This document shows positions 47,094 to 55,853 of a DNA stretch of 56,295 nt, piece by piece. Position 1 is the stretch's first letter; the number at the start of each line of letters is the position of its first letter. Position numbers and translations under genes: made by a program. Source of the stretch: a virus; the IMG/VR virus record IMGVR_UViG_3300042308_000597, positions 1 through 56,295 of that record, one strand, 5' to 3'. The notes under the pieces were generated by a model that searched no databases, was not told the origin of the DNA, and saw only the letters and a program-made list of their open reading frames with translations.

Positions 47094-50000
47094 TTAAAAT
47101 CTTGAATTAGATAAACTTTGTGTTGCACTAATTTGTTTATGGCTGTTAGTACTAATTTTATCAGTATGGTGTGCCATCGTTGTCATTGTGTTATTTAACT
47201 TTGTTACTGCATCGAGTATATCTTTTAATGATACTTGCTTTTCAACAACTTGCGCTGTAGATTTAGGTTGTTCGGCTGGTTTTTGTTCTTCATGCGGCTT
47301 GTTTACCACTGGCGGAGATGGCGGCTTTAATGAATCTCCTGAAACTACCGGTGCTTTAATATCAGGTGCTTTAATTGTTGGCATTACAGTTGGTTTAATT
47401 TCAGCAAGCTTGCTGTGATCAGGCTTTTTAGCTTTTTCTTCAGCTGTCATTCTTGCATTGTAGTCATTAAACGATTCAAGACCAAACTTTTTGTACATAT
47501 CTTTAATATGAGCTTGCTCTTTTGTTTCTGCAGGCTTTTTAATTTCAGGAAGTACATGTTTCTCTGGTTCTTTTTGTTTGTACATCCCTGAATTTTTCTG
47601 TCTGTCAAGTTCTGCATTACGAGCTTCAATTGCTTCCGGACTATTGTCTATTGTACCTATAGTTTTTTGAAGTTCTTTATCTCTAGCATCAATTTCTGCT
47701 TGTGGTATAGTTTCGTATTTTACATTACCACTTGCAAATGCAGGTTTATTGCTACTACTGAATAAATTTGTAAACTTATCAAATATTCCCGGTGAATTAT
47801 CTTTAGCTTCATCTTTATTAGGTTCAACTAGTTCAGCAGTAGGATTAGCAGCAAGATAATTGTCAACTGTTTTGTCATTGTCTTTTTTCAGCTGTGCTTG
47901 TTGTTCTTCTATTGATGCATCTGGTACTTTTTCTTCAACAGTAGGAGTACTAACATTAGCAGATGCAAAAGAATCGCCAACTGATGCAAATGCTTTATTA
48001 AAATCAGTAGATTTAAATGTATCAGTTGCAGATGTCATTGTTTCTTCTAATTTTTCAGTTGATGGCAATGCTGTAGATATTGAATCAGTAAGTTGAGAAC
48101 CAATTTCTTTAAAAGTTTCAGGTCCGCCCATGTTTTTTAATGAGTCATTAAACGTTTTCATTTCTTTTTCAACGTTTCCGCCTTTAATTACTTCGTCAGC
48201 CGGTCTACCTTTTGCTAAATGTTGACGTAACATCTCATCATATATAGGAAGATCATGTTCTGCATCTTCATCTTTCCGTGTTCTAAGATATGCTATTTGA
48301 TCTTGAAGAGCTTCAGTGTCTATATCATAATCAATTTGTTTAAACGAACCTGTTGGTTGATCTGTACCATTTTCATCTGGAATCCAATGCGGTTTTCTAT
48401 TTGTTATTGATGGACCTGGAATAGCTGGAAAACCGTCAGCTGGTTTTGTTTCAGGCTGTTTGGTACCAACTTGCTGTGTGCCAAACATAAACTTGTTTAA
48501 ATCTTCTGCAGTTTTAATACCTAAATCTAGTATTTTAGGTTCTTCTTTTTTAACTTCAGCTGGCTTTTCTTCTTTTTTAGGTTCTTCTTTTTTAGGTTCA
48601 GCTGGCTTTTCTTCTTTTTTAGGTTCTTCTTTTTTAGGTTCGGTATGTTTTTCAACAGATTTAGTTACTGTTTGTAGCATATTCCCCATGGGGTGAAACA
48701 CTTTAGTAACTACATCATGAACAGTTGTAGAAATGTTCTTTACTAATAAATCTTCGTTGTTTGGCGTAAGTACTGCTAACGATTTAATATCTATTGGTTT
48801 GTGGTCTGCGGTTTGTGTTGCGTTGCCTGATGTTGGTAAATCAATTGTAAACGGTTGCATTCCTTGTTGAGACTGTGATTTAGCCGCATTCATTGGCTGT
48901 TTAATCATGTCCATTATATCGGTAGGCATAAATTTAGCAATAATACCTTCCATTTGTTTAGGTGTTACTACTGATTCTGCACCATGTAGTTCTACCATTT
49001 CACCTTTTGGGTTAAATTGTTCAAACATACTATTAAAAGATGAGGAAGATGATTTAATAAAACTGTCAATTTCAGGTGATCCTGATGCACGTTTTGGAGG
49101 AGTAACTGGTATGTTTGCGTTGTTACCTTCAAACAATTTATTTACTTTATCGCCCGTTCCTTTTTTTAGCTCTCCAACAATTGCGTCTAAATTTATATCT
49201 TTTTGTTTATGAGGTTTTAATACTTCAGAATCTAATAAATGAAATTTGTTTATAACATCATCAGTTGCTCCAACTAACTTACTAAATCCTTCAGTTGACC
49301 CGGCAAATAAATCAGATAACGTTCGATCTGCATTGTTTAATGCTTTTGATACAGTTGCACCTGGCGTGTCAAGTGCACCGCCTTCTTCTGTTTTAAGGTT
49401 ACGGCGGTTTATTGCAGCATCTTTTAGTTCTTTTAAGGCATCTTCAGCACTTAATTTTTTACCTTCAGATGCTGCTTCGGCTTGTTTAGTTACATATACA
49501 CCTTGTGTTTTACTTGTAACTAACTCTTTACCCATTTTGTCAGCAACTGCGCCGCCTGCTAGAGCTGCAGCTTCTAATGCACCTTTAGAATTCATATATT
49601 CAAGTTGCGCTGCACGAGCTTTTTCGCCTAATGCTTCAGATCGTTTTTGGCCTTCATCTGTAGTATCTTTTAACGATATCCCATATTCTCTAATTGCAGC
49701 AGCTGCTGTGCCTGTTGCTGCTGCTGCTTCTGAACCTTCTGCAGTAGTTTTTCCAGTAAACGCTTCTTTCATTACTCGTTTAAAAGAGTCGCCCATTCCC
49801 ATTGAATCAGCTTCGGCTTGTTTATATTGCGCACGAGCTTGTGGGCCAGCTAATAACATTGATGCTTCTAAATCGCCTTCGTCTTTTGATCGTTGAAGCG
49901 CCTCAAGTTGGTCTTTTCTACTTAAACCAAGTATTCTTGAATTTTCATCAATTGCCGTTCCTAATTTTTCAGTAGCTATTACTGCGTTTTGCTGATTATT

Positions 50001-50695: not shown

Positions 50696-51526
50696 ATGGC
50701 ACAAAACCCTTTACAAGAATTTTATAGACAACCAAAAATATTCGTTTCTTTACCTTCAAAAGGAATATACAATCAATTAGGAACATTTACTGGTGATCCT
50801 ACACACATGCCAATATTTGGTATGACAGGTATGGACGATATCATAATGAAAACTCCGGATGCATTATTATCCGGTGATAGTTCAGTGAAACTAATTGAAA
50901 GCTGCTGCCCGTCAATTAAAGACGGTTGGGCAGTAACTACATTAGATGTTGATCTACTACTAACAGCAATTCGAATTGCTACTCATGGGAGTGTGTTAGA
51001 AGTTGTACATACATGCCCAAAATGTAAAACAGAAAACGATTACGATATTGATTTAGGTACAGTGATCGATCATTTTAGTAGTTGTATATACAATAATACA
51101 ATTGAAGTTGGCACATTAACTATCAAATTGCAACCACTAAATTATAAACAAACTACTGAGTTTTCTTTAAGAAATTTTAAAATGCAGCAACAATTAGCAG
51201 CAACTCCAATTGAACCTGCAGAGAAATATAAAGAAGTTGTACATGATTTGTTTATTGAATTAGGTAAAATGCAAAATGAAGTTTATTCGGCTAGTATCGA
51301 ATCAATTGATACTGGAAAAATAGTAGTAACTGAATCTAATTTTATTTCAGAATGGTTACAAAATTGCGATAAACAAATTTTTAATATTATTAAAGCACAT
51401 TTAGATCAAACTAAATCTGATTGGAAAATTCCAGCAGTAAAAGTAATTTGTAGTAACCTTGATTGTAACCACGAGTCATCAATATCAGTTGACTTAGATC
51501 AATCGAATTTTTTCGATCCCGCCTAA
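50696..51526 (+). CDS. 26: Baseplate hub / tail-assembly protein (T4 gp26-like)
   Basis: 276 aa starting at ATG 50696 (RBS CGGAG). The N-terminus (PLQEFYRQPKIFVSLPSKG), the MTGMDD..MKTPDALLSG segment and ESCCPSIKDGWAVTTLD are typical of the T4 gp26/gp51 baseplate family. Two Cys pairs, C107/C110 (CPKC) and C252/C257, could form a zinc ribbon. T4 gp26 is 208 aa and participates in baseplate hub assembly. The last codons contain a slippery T TTT TTC (51508-51514), and the -1 frame stays open for 77 further codons, so a longer frameshifted product of 350 aa is likely. First gene of a plus-strand block; driven by the late promoter at 50660. Confidence 0.85.
   Translation: MAQNPLQEFYRQPKIFVSLPSKGIYNQLGTFTGDPTHMPIFGMTGMDDIIMKTPDALLSGDSSVKLIESCCPSIKDGWAVTTLDVDLLLTAIRIATHGSVLEVVHTCPKCKTENDYDIDLGTVIDHFSSCIYNNTIEVGTLTIKLQPLNYKQTTEFSLRNFKMQQQLAATPIEPAEKYKEVVHDLFIELGKMQNEVYSASIESIDTGKIVVTESNFISEWLQNCDKQIFNIIKAHLDQTKSDWKIPAVKVICSNLDCNHESSISVDLDQSNFFDPA
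51508..51514 (+). promoter_or_regulatory. -1 ribosomal frameshift slippery heptamer T TTT TTC
   Basis: In the 0 frame the codons are AAT TTT TTC GAT; both TTT and TTC can re-pair one base back. The 0-frame stop follows three codons later (51524-51526). A classical X XXY YYZ heptamer positioned at the overlap with a continuing -1 frame. Confidence 0.65.
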
Positions 51527-51747
51527 TTGGACAATCAAGAGATTCAATTAGTCAATATCTAATTAGGCTAGATAACGAAGTTAAACGATTTAAACATGAA
51601 TTATTTAAAATATCGTGGTATATGAGAGGAGGAGTGTCAATCAACGATCTCCTGTATAACCTAAGTCACGAAGATCGTATGATTATGTATAATGTAATTG
51701 AAGAAAATATAGAAATGACAAAAGTATCTAGAATGCCATTATTGTAA
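51514..51747 (+). CDS. -1-frame extension of the gp26-like protein (gp51/GT-like domain)
   Basis: 77 codons after the slip, ending with TAA 51745-51747. The only ATG in this frame (51622) lacks a ribosome site and lies after conserved-looking sequence (RDSISQYLIRLDNEVKRFKHE), so independent initiation is unlikely. The tail WYMRGGVSINDLLYNLSHED has the pattern seen in C-terminal halves of gp26/gp51-type proteins and of frameshifted tail-assembly chaperones (lambda gpG-T type). The stop overlaps the convergent minus-strand gene by nine bases. Confidence 0.65.
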   Translation, partial: RSRLIGQSRDSISQYLIRLDNEVKRFKHELFKISWYMRGGVSINDLLYNLSHEDRMIMYNVIEENIEMTKVSRMPLL

Positions 51748-52590
51748 TGACTTCATTTCTACTCTGCCTGTTACGGGATTACGTTGCAATCTAGATCCTA
51801 GGTATTCACCTGGAACAGGCAATTCTTTTTCAACTGGTTTATTTGTGCTAAACATCTGTGCCGTTAGACTTGCATCTTGTGCTGGCGTTAACGGTGGAGT
51901 TGGCGGTGGCGCATTTGGATCTAACTGGTCTTTTCCATTAATGGGTTTATCTAATTCTTTTAATCCAATTGCACGTCTAAATAAATCTTCAAAATAATCG
52001 TGTGCTTCAACACCTAGTTTACCAATTATTTGTGTTATATTAACGTCTCCGTGAATATGAACACCAAGCCAGTCAATATCATAATTAACTCCAGTAAAAA
52101 CCACTAATTTAGCAATTGCTGATCTTCCTGTTTCAGACTGAAGTTCGTATAATATCCATGCTCTAGCTCCGTCAGATAACAATCCTATAGTTTTTCCTAG
52201 TGGGCCACCAATACCTGGAATAAATTGTAAAAATTTTCCAAATGTACTAAGTGATCCAAGTATTCCGCTAACTATAATTCCTGCAGATAATCCTGCAATT
52301 AATTGACCCATTTGCAGTTCATGCTGCTCATTAAATTCAGCAATTGCAGCTGGAGTGTTACCGGCTTTAGTTAGATTGGCTTCAACTTGTTGCATGTTTA
52401 CCATATACGTGTCAAACGGTTTCCATAATGCTTCGTACCAACTAAACAGTTTTAAACTTTTATGCAACACACGTCCTAATTTAGAAAAGAACCCAGGATC
52501 AGGCGGAGCATCAGCTTCGTATATTTTACTTAATTCCTGAGCAAGTATTTTCTTGCTTGGAAGTTGATTAGTAACTTCGTAAATTTTCAT
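51739..52590 (-). CDS. Putative internal/ejected head protein with hydrophobic core segments
   Basis: 283 aa. Start chosen at ATG 52590 (MKIYEVTNQL) because AAAGGAATATT precedes it; the ORF could otherwise begin at 52617. The first 25 residues end in KIYE25-A26, an (L/I)-x-E site for gp21 cleavage, and resemble a capsid-targeting sequence. Two hydrophobic, glycine-rich stretches (about residues 95-117 and 120-150: GLSAGIIVSGILGSL, FIPGIGGPLGKTIGLL) could insert into membranes. A proline-rich linker (PNAPPPTPPLTPAQD) precedes the C-terminus. Function unknown; internal head or DNA-ejection protein is inferred. Late promoter-like box at 52638-52645. Confidence 0.78.
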   Translation of the reverse strand: MKIYEVTNQLPSKKILAQELSKIYEADAPPDPGFFSKLGRVLHKSLKLFSWYEALWKPFDTYMVNMQQVEANLTKAGNTPAAIAEFNEQHELQMGQLIAGLSAGIIVSGILGSLSTFGKFLQFIPGIGGPLGKTIGLLSDGARAWILYELQSETGRSAIAKLVVFTGVNYDIDWLGVHIHGDVNITQIIGKLGVEAHDYFEDLFRRAIGLKELDKPINGKDQLDPNAPPPTPPLTPAQDASLTAQMFSTNKPVEKELPVPGEYLGSRLQRNPVTGRVEMKSLQ

Positions 52591-52637: not shown

Positions 52638-52645
52638 TATTTATT
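52638..52645 (-). promoter_or_regulatory. Late promoter-like box (AATAAATA)
   Basis: One base from the T4 late consensus, 48 bases before ATG 52590. Confidence 0.45.
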
Positions 52646-52667
52646 AAAAAATATATTTCATATTAAA

Positions 52668-52687
52668 AGATGAACTAACGTTCATCT
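52668..52687 (-). terminator. Hairpin AGATGAAC-GTTA-GTTCATCT with T-rich tail
   Basis: A perfect 8-bp stem with a 4-base loop, followed on the minus strand by TTTTAATATG. It separates the upstream non-coding interval from the promoter of the 283-aa gene. Moderate terminator quality. Confidence 0.5.
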
Positions 52688-52733
52688 GTATTTCGCTATC
52701 GCTCAATACTATTCTCTCTAACAACAATAATGA

Positions 52734-52774
52734 AAAAAACAATTAAATTATAAATGAATTAATATAATTTAATT
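52734..52774 (-). terminator. 12-bp AT hairpin followed by T7
   Basis: aattaaattata (52741-52752) and tataatttaatt (52763-52774) are perfect inverse copies. On the minus strand the hairpin is followed by G and seven T (52733-52739 region). A possible end of a minus-strand transcript through the hairpin-rich interval; the stem has no GC pairs, so efficiency is uncertain. Confidence 0.5.
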
Positions 52775-53200
52775 ATTTTAATAAAGAGATATCACTTTTG
52801 AAGTCAGATGCACCCTAATAAAAATAGATGCATGATTTCACCCCATCGCCATGGAATTTGCAGTAAGAATTTATATGACTGTAGACTTTTGCTATTGGCT
52901 ACCTCCGGACCAACACTTACAGGTATTTTTAAGATATAACTTTCAGGTGCTTCGTATATCATTACAAAATTGTTACTATTACTAGTATTCTACAGATTTA
53001 AAGCCTATGTATTCTTTTTCAAATACAGCTAGACCACCATTCCGATTAAACAAAGCATTGACATCAATGGACGTTGCTTTTGGCATCCTCTTGCGAGAGG
53101 GTAGTGTTTAAAAGTCGTTGCACAATCAACGATTTGAGCAGCGGTTCTCGTTTCCAGAACTTGTCTCAGCAGTATTACAATCCGGCCTGCCAACCTTATG
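52775..53200 (-). ncRNA. Candidate structured non-coding RNA (no known family recognised)
   Basis: The whole stretch between the 283-aa gene and RNase HI (52591-53276) lacks a convincing gene. It contains a set of perfect short helices: TTGGCA/TGCCAA (53080-53085 with 53188-53193) enclosing three hairpins, CCTCT/AGAGG (53087-53100), TCGTTG/CAACGA (53115-53132) and GTTCT/AGAAC (53144-53160), the last extended by TGAG/CTCA. Further along are CTGTA/TACAG enclosing TTGG/CCAA (52879-52922) and CCAT/ATGG (52843-52854). GC content is visibly higher here than in adjoining intergenic DNA. Strand is assigned from both flanking genes and the downstream T7 hairpin; structure would also form on the plus strand. 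Two short minus ORFs (34 codons ending 52982, 52 codons ending 52804) lie inside and could be coding instead. Confidence 0.4.
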
Positions 53201-53276
53201 TTAGTGTGAATTAAAAGTGTTTTGTGTGTTTTGTCTAGTATTTACAAAAGTGTTTTAAACAAGGGGTTAAAAGTGG

Positions 53277-53696
53277 TTAGTTGTTACGAGCAGCAGCTTC
53301 TGCTAAATCATTAGCGCGTTCGTTACCTGGATTACCTGCATGGGCTTTAACCCATTGCCAATCTATAGTGTGTGCAGCAGCAACAGTTTCTAATTTAAGC
53401 CATAGATCACGATTTAAGTAATCAGTACGCCCTTTCTTTTTCCAATTAGGAAACCATTGTGTAAAGCCATCAACTAGATATTTTGAATCAGAATAAATTT
53501 TAACTTTGCATGGTCTTTTTAAACGCGATAGTGCTTCAATAGCAGCTTGCATTTCCATGCGGTTGTTAGTAGTTTGTGGTTCTGTTCCAGAAAATTCTTT
53601 AATGACGTCTCTGTATTGCATAGTAGCACCCCATCCGCCTTTACCTGGATTTGGTACACATGCGCCGTCTGTATAAATTATTACGAGTTCTTCCAT
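53277..53696 (-). CDS. rnhA: Ribonuclease HI
   Basis: 139 aa starting at ATG 53696. All catalytic residues of type 1 RNase H are present: D10 (YTDGA), E48 (NNRMEMQAA), D70 (YSDSKYL), H119 (KAHAGNPGNE) and D130 (ANDLAEAA). It is slightly shorter than E. coli RNase HI (155 aa) and unrelated to the T4 Rnh of the FEN family, so it is the bacterial type. It removes the RNA strand of RNA-DNA hybrids, probably processing primers in phage replication. No clear Shine-Dalgarno site precedes the ATG. It is separated from the capsid-type genes by the non-coding interval. Confidence 0.97.
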   Translation of the reverse strand: MEELVIIYTDGACVPNPGKGGWGATMQYRDVIKEFSGTEPQTTNNRMEMQAAIEALSRLKRPCKVKIYSDSKYLVDGFTQWFPNWKKKGRTDYLNRDLWLKLETVAAAHTIDWQWVKAHAGNPGNERANDLAEAAARNN

Positions 53697-53745: not shown

Positions 53746-53848
53746 TGAACAACTTCTCCACCTTGTTAGAAACGATTATACAGTCATTAGTATCAAAAGT
53801 CAACTGCTATTATTACCGATGGTAAATATACACAATATAGGAACACAC

Positions 53849-54865
53849 ATGAGAGTTATAGATATTTTAAAAGAATCTGATATTACACCTAAGCCTAAAG
53901 CTGCGATACCGATTACTACATATAAAAAACAATATAAAAACTTAATAGCTGATATTGAGCAATTTCTTCGTGATGATTATAAAGGTCCATTTTATGTTAA
54001 TACACGAGTTCATGATAACCATACTGATAATCTTAGATCACCTGAAGGACGAACATGGCCGGTAATACTGGAATTAATAAAATTTTATAATAATTTAAAA
54101 AAAATTTATGGTAACGGAACAGATGTTAATTATAGTTCGTTGTATAGTAGTATGGTCGAATTAAAACAATATGTTCTATCGCAACGAAAACCATCTACCG
54201 GAGTACTAACACCTAATACTAAACCGGTAGTACAAGGTAAACGAATACCATTTTATACTACATTTGTAAACGATATTACTAATTTTCTCAATTCAAAAGA
54301 GAATGTTCAATTATATTCAAAATATGGTTATTTTAGAGATCAAGTAACACCTGAACAATACGAATATTTAAAAAGTTTTATAGAATATACACCTGTATCT
54401 GAAGAAGATGCAAAAAGTAAAATTGATATATTTACTAATTTTCTTAATGATCGTGATTCCGATTATAAAACATCTGACCGTAGAAAAGAATCTAAAAAAC
54501 GGATGGCAGAAACCCCATTACCTCCTGATCTTGACACTAACAATCCGTTGCATGCACAATGGCTAACACTTGCAAGAGATGTAGTATTACGGAGAGAGTC
54601 TACAATAACATTTTTAGAAATGTGGGATATAATAAAATTACAAGAATGGCGATGTGCGTTATCTAATAGAGAATTTAATGAAACAAACAATCGATTAAGC
54701 TTTGATCGAATTAATTCAGATAGATCTTATGAAGTAGGTAATCTTTGGTTTACTACACATGCAATTAACGTTATGAAAAACCAATTAACAACAGACCAAT
54801 TTGTATCATTGTGTAAATTTATACATGATAGAAATACAGTAAATACTAAAAATGGAAGTATTTGA
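53849..54865 (+). CDS. HNH-type nuclease with capsid-targeting-like N-terminus
   Basis: 338 aa. Start chosen at ATG 53849 (ATAGGAACACAC upstream) instead of ATG 53819. The N-terminus MRVIDILKE9-S10 has the length and the (L/I)-x-E end of T4 internal-protein targeting signals (MKTYQEFIAE-A). The C-terminal domain (about residues 255-330) reads WRCALSN....LSFDRINSD..YEVGNLWF......NVMK, the pattern of HNH/endonuclease-VII-like homing nucleases (Cys, DR, GN, N..MK). The intervening region is helical and charged without recognised domain. It is a distant paralogue of the next gene, whose start overlaps it. Could be a homing endonuclease or a nuclease packaged in the head. Confidence 0.85.
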   Translation: MRVIDILKESDITPKPKAAIPITTYKKQYKNLIADIEQFLRDDYKGPFYVNTRVHDNHTDNLRSPEGRTWPVILELIKFYNNLKKIYGNGTDVNYSSLYSSMVELKQYVLSQRKPSTGVLTPNTKPVVQGKRIPFYTTFVNDITNFLNSKENVQLYSKYGYFRDQVTPEQYEYLKSFIEYTPVSEEDAKSKIDIFTNFLNDRDSDYKTSDRRKESKKRMAETPLPPDLDTNNPLHAQWLTLARDVVLRRESTITFLEMWDIIKLQEWRCALSNREFNETNNRLSFDRINSDRSYEVGNLWFTTHAINVMKNQLTTDQFVSLCKFIHDRNTVNTKNGSI

Positions 54866-54866
54866 A

Positions 54867-55853
54867 ATGAGCACACCAGAGAAATACAAAGACACTTTAA
54901 CAAAAAAACTTACAAAAACTATAATACATATAAAGGGAAAACCATATAAAAATTATCCATTTCCTCTTGGATTTTATCTACAACGGACTGACATGGAGTT
55001 ATTGCATAAAGTAAGAGATGATCTTACAAAAGTACTTGATTCTCGAGAAACGTTTGAAATTACAGAACAAATGTTTAATTTTTATAACGACCGTGCAGCT
55101 AAAGTTTTTGAAATTATTTCTGACCGATATAAACTTATAAAACGAGCTTTATCAATAAAACCAGAACTTACACCCAATGAGTATAAAGTTGTCTCATTAC
55201 GGAGGCAATGCTTATACACCGGTTTACCTATTGAAACATTTAATTACAATGCAGATGCAATAATAGCTTCGGATAAAAGATATAAAGAACCGTTAGACCG
55301 TGAGAAAGAAAGATATAAAAAATCATTAGCTATACAACAGTATGTAAGGAATATTAAAGGTCCGCTACCATCTGACTACAATAACAACGATACTAAACAT
55401 AAAATGTGGTTTATTGCTGCAACTAGCATTTATGATCGATTAACTTCTAGGTTAGAAAAGTTAGAAGACGGAAAACAAATAGAGGATAGATTTTCAGTAT
55501 CTATGTCATATCAAGATTTATGGGATTTAATTAATAAACAAGAATGGAAATGTGCATTTACACATCTCCCATTTTATGAAGGAAAAACAAAATTAGATCA
55601 AGGTAGATTATCTGGACTTAAATCAAGCCCAGATCGATTAGATCCGTTGAAAGGATATCATAAAGGAAACGTTGAGTTTGTATTAGTTAGAATGAATATG
55701 ATGAAATGGACAAGTAGCTACAGCGAATTTCTTAGTCTGTGTAGTGATGTTGCTACGTATGCAGTAACAAAATATAATATACCACTGTTAAATGTTAATG
55801 AGATTATCAATTCATTAGATAAACCTGTTGACTCAACAGATCTTACACTTTAG
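54867..55853 (+). CDS. HNH-type nuclease, paralogue of the preceding gene
   Basis: 328 aa. I use ATG 54867 (MSTPEKYKDT) with the GGAAGT ribosome site 8-14 bases upstream; ATG 54852 would place that site inside the coding region. It starts one base after the previous stop (TGAAATG), so translation is coupled. The C-terminal domain contains LWDLINKQEWKCAF, SPDRLDPLKGYHKGNVEFV and NMMK, i.e. the same HNH-like core as its neighbour. An extra Cys-containing segment (LRRQCLYTGLPIE) sits in the middle. No targeting-like N-terminus. Function in the phage unknown; tandem pairing suggests duplication followed by divergence. Confidence 0.85.
   Translation: MSTPEKYKDTLTKKLTKTIIHIKGKPYKNYPFPLGFYLQRTDMELLHKVRDDLTKVLDSRETFEITEQMFNFYNDRAAKVFEIISDRYKLIKRALSIKPELTPNEYKVVSLRRQCLYTGLPIETFNYNADAIIASDKRYKEPLDREKERYKKSLAIQQYVRNIKGPLPSDYNNNDTKHKMWFIAATSIYDRLTSRLEKLEDGKQIEDRFSVSMSYQDLWDLINKQEWKCAFTHLPFYEGKTKLDQGRLSGLKSSPDRLDPLKGYHKGNVEFVLVRMNMMKWTSSYSEFLSLCSDVATYAVTKYNIPLLNVNEIINSLDKPVDSTDLTL

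Follow-up and report, generated by a model that had tools for sequence, protein, structure and literature searches.

GOLLD forms a 14-mer RNA nanocage. In PMC12286853, GOLLD is described as a large, phage-borne RNA with a better-kept 3' part, and ROOL as a phage or prophage RNA with a 659-nt example and multiple pseudoknots; both often lie near tRNA islands. A third described RNA, Polynucleobacter-1 (RF01718), appears in the table of PMC2864571 as 'Burkholderiales, fresh water/estuary' with cis-regulation 'y', that is, as probably cis-regulatory. Unlike the RNA described here, it is not tabulated there as a phage RNA, and our label "aquatic" for the present RNA rests on that 'fresh water/estuary' entry.

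Here we analyzed a 56,295-nucleotide stretch of viral DNA (IMG/VR record IMGVR_UViG_3300042308_000597, hereafter the window), which carries a candidate structured RNA gene beside its tail-region genes. Based on sequence comparison, this RNA is very probably real and akin to a phage RNA family. Like GOLLD, the RNA is large and phage-borne and has a better-kept 3' part, and its second copies lie near tRNA islands, where GOLLD and ROOL are often found as well (PMC12286853). It resembles ROOL in size, phage or prophage origin, and multiple pseudoknots (PMC12286853). However, many GOLLD members exceed 800 nt (PMC12286853) and neither RNA gave an Rfam match here; unlike in ROOL, the main copy sits beside tail-region genes, not tRNAs.

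The window is compact, with 28 ORFs of at least 70 amino acids and 1,785 bases in total between ORFs. The gap on the rnhA side takes up 686 bases between the RNase HI gene and a minus-strand tail-region gene. An earlier note on this DNA had reported a non-coding interval of about 0.65 kb. Such an interval is present and is slightly larger, at 0.69 kb, while the limits proposed for the RNA (52734-53200) were too narrow, since the 5' domain begins at about 53215 and the tandem hairpins shared at the 3' end extend to 52668. Nor does the RNA end at the AT hairpin as the note had it; it runs about 70 nt further in the 3' direction. Both ends of the RNA gene listed below are predicted, the 5' end at about 13 nt past the start of the late-promoter-like box and the 3' end after the terminator-like hairpin.

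53277..53696, minus strand: flanking RNase HI gene (PF00075, E 2e-44)
53239..53246, minus strand: T4-type late-promoter-like box TGTAAATA upstream of the RNA, by motif match only
52661..53232, minus strand: predicted RNA gene of about 570 nt (19 of 20 rnhA loci; alignment A1; ORFs broken in the most diverged homologues)
53107..53215, minus strand: 5' domain, homologous to that of the main family (match to model R1)
53144..53160, minus strand: hairpin GTTCT/AGAAC (97.8% of A1 cells paired)
53115..53132, minus strand: CAACGA/TCGTTG helix region with compensatory changes (100% of cells paired, three pairs changed on both sides)
52804..53030, minus strand: central and 3' domain, where A1 has long invariant blocks as well as compensated helices; the main-family 3' model has no match here
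52688..52709, minus strand: penultimate hairpin GTATTGAGCGATAGCGAAATAC, in the 3' tandem-hairpin stretch that the P clade also has (nhmmer E 0.0025)
52661..52687, minus strand: terminator-like hairpin AGATGAAC-GTTA-GTTCATCT (hairpin 52668-52687), then TTTTAAT; stem in 9-10 of 10 A1 rows
52638..52644, minus strand: late-promoter-like ATAAATA of the next gene, 3' of the terminator, by motif match
51739..52590, minus strand: downstream flanking gene, fast-evolving, tail region (no PHROG or Pfam match)
50696..51526, plus strand: convergent baseplate hub gene, the syntenic anchor (phrog_150)

The TGTAAATA box lies about 24 nt ahead of the 5' domain and may start transcription of the RNA; its variants are TATAAATA in loci L009 and L017 and CATAAATA in L019. 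The 3' end shared within the window clade consists of two successive hairpins (52688-52709 and 52668-52687); the second is followed by TTTTAAT and then the ATAAATA box. Relatives carry the same type of terminator-like hairpin. ARAGORN finds no tRNA or tmRNA in the window.

A scan with the RNase H protein returned 20 loci, some of them near-identical. The interval adjoins rnhA in 19 of these at approximately 80-100% identity, two 372-kb records among them, and only L020 lacks it. In 35 of 36 pairs drawn from the window and eight relatives, the RNA core is more similar than rnhA is at its four-fold sites, though by a small margin where divergence is greatest; only L009-L010 departs from this (79.1 for the core and 80.0 for the four-fold sites). 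In some pairs the overall RNA identity is below the nucleotide identity of rnhA, as between the window and L009 (79.7 vs 90.9). The downstream gene behaves differently from the RNA, with 21-33% amino acid identity over aligned parts in most relatives, among them L002, L004, L006, L011, and L017, where the RNA is 91-99% identical. The stable RNA next to a fast-changing gene thus sits at the junction of conserved and fast-changing blocks.

The gap folds better than its shuffles on both strands (z of -4.4 for minus and -3.3 for plus, 20 shuffles each). RNAalifold on ten window-clade sequences gave 138 pairs, 17 of them with compensated double changes, though the covariation term is just -0.89. 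All helices listed in the earlier note occur as letters, including the AT-rich inverted repeat with its T7, the surroundings of which vary in length among the A1 homologues. Their support in ten homologues is uneven. TCGTTG/CAACGA holds up best, with every cell paired and three of six pairs doubly changed, and GTTCT/AGAAC is kept. TTGGCA/TGCCAA (53188-53193 with 53080-53085) exists in the sequence but is weak as a closing stem, at 92.6% paired, and in three of its six pairs every change disrupts pairing. The inner part of CCTCT/AGAGG, two pairs, forms in just 58.8% of cells. The closed multibranch that the note had drawn from these stems is partly right, in that its TCGTTG/CAACGA and GTTCT/AGAAC arms hold; its closing stem and the inner part of CCTCT/AGAGG are not supported. 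The note had also read the gap as a phage-encoded large structured RNA, naming presence in relatives, compensatory changes, and coding conservation of the short ORFs as checks. All three were run, and the conserved interval, the covariation (for example in TCGTTG/CAACGA), and the lack of a conserved ORF strongly support that reading.

We next refer to two clades of relatives by labels coined in this analysis, M and P. The M clade was collected with a pattern of about 20 letters written from the window and from L079, a bridging locus of the P clade that was fetched via its hub gene and matches the 5' end of the window RNA. The pattern had at least 120 matches in viral contigs, of which 116 were located. 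Three other pattern matches, L126-L128, had no match to the 5' domain model and were dropped. Among the matches listed, the RNA is 340-550 nt long in the same gene neighborhood, the hub gene is on the opposite strand in 29 of the 32 loci with 5.2 kb downstream, and a SegE-type GIY-YIG gene (PF19835) is directly upstream in 86 of 108. The window shares this position, with its RNA upstream of a convergent baseplate hub gene.

The 5' domain model, R1, was built from 38 M sequences and no window-clade sequences, and comprises a GGCRGGCC...ACYGCT hairpin with adjoining stems. Its alignment has 96 double-change cells, compared with 34.8 when shuffled and at most 27 when slid. R1 matches the window at 53107-53215 on the minus strand, the first 109 nt, with 36.9 bits (E 1.9e-6 in 535 kb). 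Part of this match is by construction, as the some 20 letters used to choose the M set also occur in the window. Kinship is independently supported by synteny, by L079, by the shared 3' hairpins (nhmmer E 0.0025), and by loci fetched by the 3' motif alone. R1 also matches all eight other window-clade loci tested and scores 105.5 bits at L079, the only P locus tested at which the RNA matched. As for the loci fetched by the 3' motif, 59 were obtained and 39 searched, of which 31 have 450 nt or more on the upstream side. The 5' domain is recognized by R1 in 14 of the 39 (73-99 bits); the 25 others have no strong match, eight of them having less than 450 nt upstream. The 3' domain with its two identical 7-mers (described below) seems to occur with other 5' domains as well, and since it is seen apart from the R1-type domain, it may be the more widespread part of the RNA. 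A 3' domain model from 33 M sequences, R2, scores 100.4 bits at L079 and gives weak matches (E 0.6-6) at the RNA in 13 of the 25 P loci given to it. It has no match in the window up to E 10, so the window copy is best described as a relative with a diverged 3' domain rather than a full member of the M family.

The full M-clade structure was derived from covariation in alignment A5, which holds 48 RNAs of 341-437 nt up to the end of the 3' motif. It has 12 helices and 60 pairs, including two pseudoknots. Pairs form in 97.7% of cells (82.2 shuffled), double-change cells number 435 (120.4 shuffled, 20-68 slid), and the score is 0.463 (0.170 shuffled); since the helices were picked on the same alignment, these values should be judged against the slid and shuffled controls. 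In the first pseudoknot, which is paired in 48 of 48 rows, the 5' end CCAACA meets the loop UGUUGG of a hairpin, and three of the six pairs change on both sides. The second joins columns 212-216 to 372-376, and all five of its pairs show double changes.

The P clade was found with the hub protein. Among the best 80 of 339 hub-relative stretches, 62 loci have more distant hubs (50-57%) and no rnhA. The core RNA motif is present in 55 of these 62, a partial or divergent RNA is found in L063, L079, L113, and L119, and the remaining three have less than 1.2 kb available on the RNA side. SegE lies upstream in 46 of 47 (same best 80 of 339). Twenty-seven non-redundant P RNAs share 80 consensus pairs, 34 with double changes, and a covariation term of -11.08; L121, with a long insert, was omitted from alignment A3. 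The 141-nt model of Polynucleobacter-1 fits the 5' part of this syntenic RNA, covering the first part of the equivalent gap in four of five loci scanned (91.9 bits in L065), but it spans just the 5' third of P-clade RNAs. It matches neither the window (gathering score 37, or up to E 10) nor L079 (up to E 10). This suggests that Polynucleobacter-1, instead of being a small and probably cis-regulatory RNA, is a piece of a larger one that is phage-borne and free-standing. This piece of one subclade is the sole Rfam 15 match that we found for the family, which is widespread judging by its sequence matches, with only a fragment in Rfam; the family sizes given here are lower bounds. Two viral-contig scans each gave at least 120 matches, indicating that the RNA is common in public viral contigs. 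The hub proteins of RNA-bearing phages are often only about 30% identical to that of the window, and as the RNA is kept with two pseudoknots over such distances, it probably does something important in infection.

In relatives, the 3' domain is laid out as ACUC plus a 7-mer, a hairpin, and AAUCU plus the same 7-mer. Both copies are identical in 48 of 48 A5 rows although four positions vary, and identity holds over more than ten variants. Three of the four vary in more than one row, and at these no third column tracks the change (best normalized mutual information 0.49, vs 1.0). An anchored scan of 91 M sequences among the matches listed found 83 identical pairs, and none in 1,820 dinucleotide shuffles. 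The copies in L219 and L244 agree at six of seven positions; L183, L185, L186, and L225 fail the anchors but have identical copies visible by eye, and no identical pair was seen in L129 and L177. Identity also holds in 55 of 55 P loci (best 80 of 339 hub relatives). We then took an independent sample with one of the seven letters fixed and six open, which gave at least 120 viral-contig matches. Among those listed, 110 of 111 are identical overall, as are 45 of the 45 distinct anchored stretches that were not already in the first set (at most nine of which are not ACATGAA). Of the distinct stretches other than ACATGAA, 31 of 32 are identical, compared with 0.18 when copies are shuffled between sequences. 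L245, found by a different pattern, carries yet another variant (ACTTAAA/ACTTAAA). Mutual pairing is possible for ACAUGAA and weak for ACAUAAU, ACAUAAA, ACAGGAA, and ACAGAAA, so pairing cannot explain the identity in those variants. Complements of the 7-mers are not enriched in the flanks of about 10 kb, and thus no nucleic-acid partner was found there. The simplest reading of these patterns is that both copies would meet the same partner. In the window clade the two elements differ in A1, and in the window we read them as GTGAAAT and GTGATAT; the window does not carry the 3' domain with two identical elements. As a separate observation, A5 columns 421 and 494, upstream of the 7-mers, also change in identity (CC in 46, GG in 2), and the repeated module may be longer than 7 nt.

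Some large phages carry a second copy, RNA-B. A search of ten records with R1 revealed additional copies in G001 (E 9.7e-4) and G002 (E 5e-5), the 372-kb records of the window clade, and in G004 (E 3.7e-7) of the P clade. R2 also matches the RNA-B copies, confirming the first two and giving E 0.025 for G004.

G001:240155-240571: second copy L257, window clade
G002:272325-272704: second copy L258, window clade
G004:60680-61080: second copy L259, P clade

The identical 7-mer pair is intact in all three. The copies lie approximately 7, 8, and 10 kb from a tRNA island, with the RNA first and on the same strand in each of the three records.

At the level of sequence, the comparisons establish that the gap has no conserved ORF, that its structure and position are conserved, and that its 5' domain is homologous to that of the family; in relatives they likewise establish the terminator-like hairpin before the promoter-like box of the next gene and the two mutually identical 7-nt elements. 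As a whole explanation, we lean toward a free-standing, terminator-bounded structured ncRNA that is probably made late, that is a divergent relative of the family, and that in the family serves as a docking scaffold. The RNA would be transcribed from the late-promoter-like box, probably late in infection, and the transcript would be bounded by the terminator-like hairpin ahead of the next gene. In the family it would then fold into a scaffold offering two identical docking sites to one trans partner, which could be a dimeric protein or one RNA present in two copies. In the window copy the 5' domain and the terminator are retained and the identical sites are missing; RNA-B of its two 372-kb relatives has these sites. 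Because the window has neither an R2 match nor the identical pair, the docking mechanism rests on the relatives. The two-site scaffold is itself a tentative proposal. Equally speculative is the idea of a new class of RNA machine, a pseudoknotted scaffold with two co-evolving, identical 7-nt addresses for the same phage- or host-specific partner and with duplicated copies in some large phages, one beside the tail genes and one near tRNA islands. The jointly changing repeats provide a handle, since a binding partner should change with them and hence be findable, and the RNA could in this way reveal a new RNA machine used during infection. M RNAs mostly have no late-promoter-like box upstream (4 of 111 have one within 160 nt, among the matches listed) and may instead be made together with SegE and then trimmed.

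Other explanations account for parts of these data. In the window, and in 46 of 55 P loci (here and below in this paragraph, best 80 of 339 hub relatives), the gene that follows the RNA is on the same strand. This would suit an RNA acting in cis as the leader of that tail-region gene, the role guessed for Polynucleobacter-1 by the 'y' entry of the 2010 table (PMC2864571). Yet a terminator-like hairpin and a separate late-promoter-like box stand between RNA and gene. Of the P loci whose next ORF is on the same strand, 46 of 46 have such a box no more than 15 nt past the terminator, and of those whose next ORF is convergent, none of nine does. The RNA is kept in those nine of 55, and so persists with no gene to lead. 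With no constant link to a same-strand gene, and with a downstream gene that diverges to 21-33% identity next to a stable RNA, we rejected the leader as very improbable. Even less credible is a short protein-coding ORF (such as 52804-52962 on the minus strand) or an element that acts as DNA, for example a recombination boundary. Long invariant blocks and the junction of conserved and fast-changing blocks fit this idea, but the covariation is RNA-like, and each of the five ATG-started ORFs of at least 30 amino acids is frameshifted or stopped in both L009 and L019, the most diverged homologues. Several of the five remain open in nearer copies; the coding reading is rejected for these ATG-started ORFs, GTG- and TTG-started ones being outside the test.

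The remaining alternatives concern what the two elements do. A T-box specifier pairs with the tRNA anticodon loop. If the 7-mer is read as NN-triplet-A-N (AUG, AUA, AGG, AGA, GUG, AUC), each copy could similarly pair with an anticodon loop, and both the A at position 6 of both copies in 48 of 48 aligned rows and the position of RNA-B near tRNA islands in three of three records agree with tRNA docking. However, tRNAs were found in five of the 19 records searched and in none of the 12 from the M clade, all fragments; position 2 is a G in the P-clade copies and would call for C37 in the tRNA; and the islands hold too many anticodons to discriminate. We regard tRNA docking as very improbable. A homo-oligomeric particle like those of GOLLD and ROOL, in which the elements would be contacts within the assembly, is unlikely but deserves more weight. 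The size, phage origin, and pseudoknots, the occurrence of the 3' domain without an R1-type 5' domain, and second copies about 7-10 kb from tRNA islands all point that way, and GOLLD and ROOL are described as forming cages (PMC12286853). Against it, no Rfam scan made here matched GOLLD or ROOL, including searches at E 10 of the window, L079, and two relatives, and identity of the elements, as opposed to complementarity, misfits simple kissing pairs. The comparison with GOLLD in the earlier note is fair as an analogy of size, phage origin, and a second copy about 7-10 kb from a tRNA island; the Rfam scans gave no match to GOLLD.

The note had recognized no known family, and Rfam agrees, with no gathering-level match in the window. 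At E 10 the only match there is a fragment of c4 antisense RNA targets (RF03163) on the plus strand, rejected at 17.2 bits against a gathering score of 46.7. Fourteen M loci gave none at gathering, and the L191 RNA gave nothing meaningful at E 10. Four RNA queries found no convincing match in a DNA comparison with a cultured-phage collection, one comparison giving just short matches inside the RNA at E 0.3 or worse. R1 also matched three cultured phages weakly, namely RaK2 (E 0.04), Mosig (E 0.26), and S-SRM01 (E 0.63); these matches were taken as chance, neither the 5' nor the 3' motif being visible by eye in the first two. Phage Melnitz has a close SegE (63.9%) but a different gene context and no R1 or R2 match. 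In a blastn search with RNA-B, the 20 listed of 233 phage records all align to the far end of the query, where by position the next (HNH-like) gene has begun and the RNA is over. A 2017 list reportedly holds 224 candidate RNAs. We found no description of the full RNA in the open-access papers searched.

In Sinorhizobium phage Phosso (L248:6846-8246), the hub, small genes, and RNase HI are ordered as in the window, with a 1-kb unannotated gap beside RNase HI; R1 and R2 had no match in this record. A related RNA lies at L245:3030-3630, on a 152.9-kb contig binned into a Methylococcaceae MAG; this is possibly a phage contig and a hint to the host. Within the window itself, two adjacent endonuclease VII/HNH-like genes (53819-55853) lie between a PDDEXK/RusA-like gene and rnhA, and the pair is present in some relatives and missing in others, as expected of homing genes. 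At 48460-48700, a Lys/Glu/Pro repeat (KPAEPKKEEPKKEE) occurs inside a 1179-amino-acid protein adjoining the portal gene.
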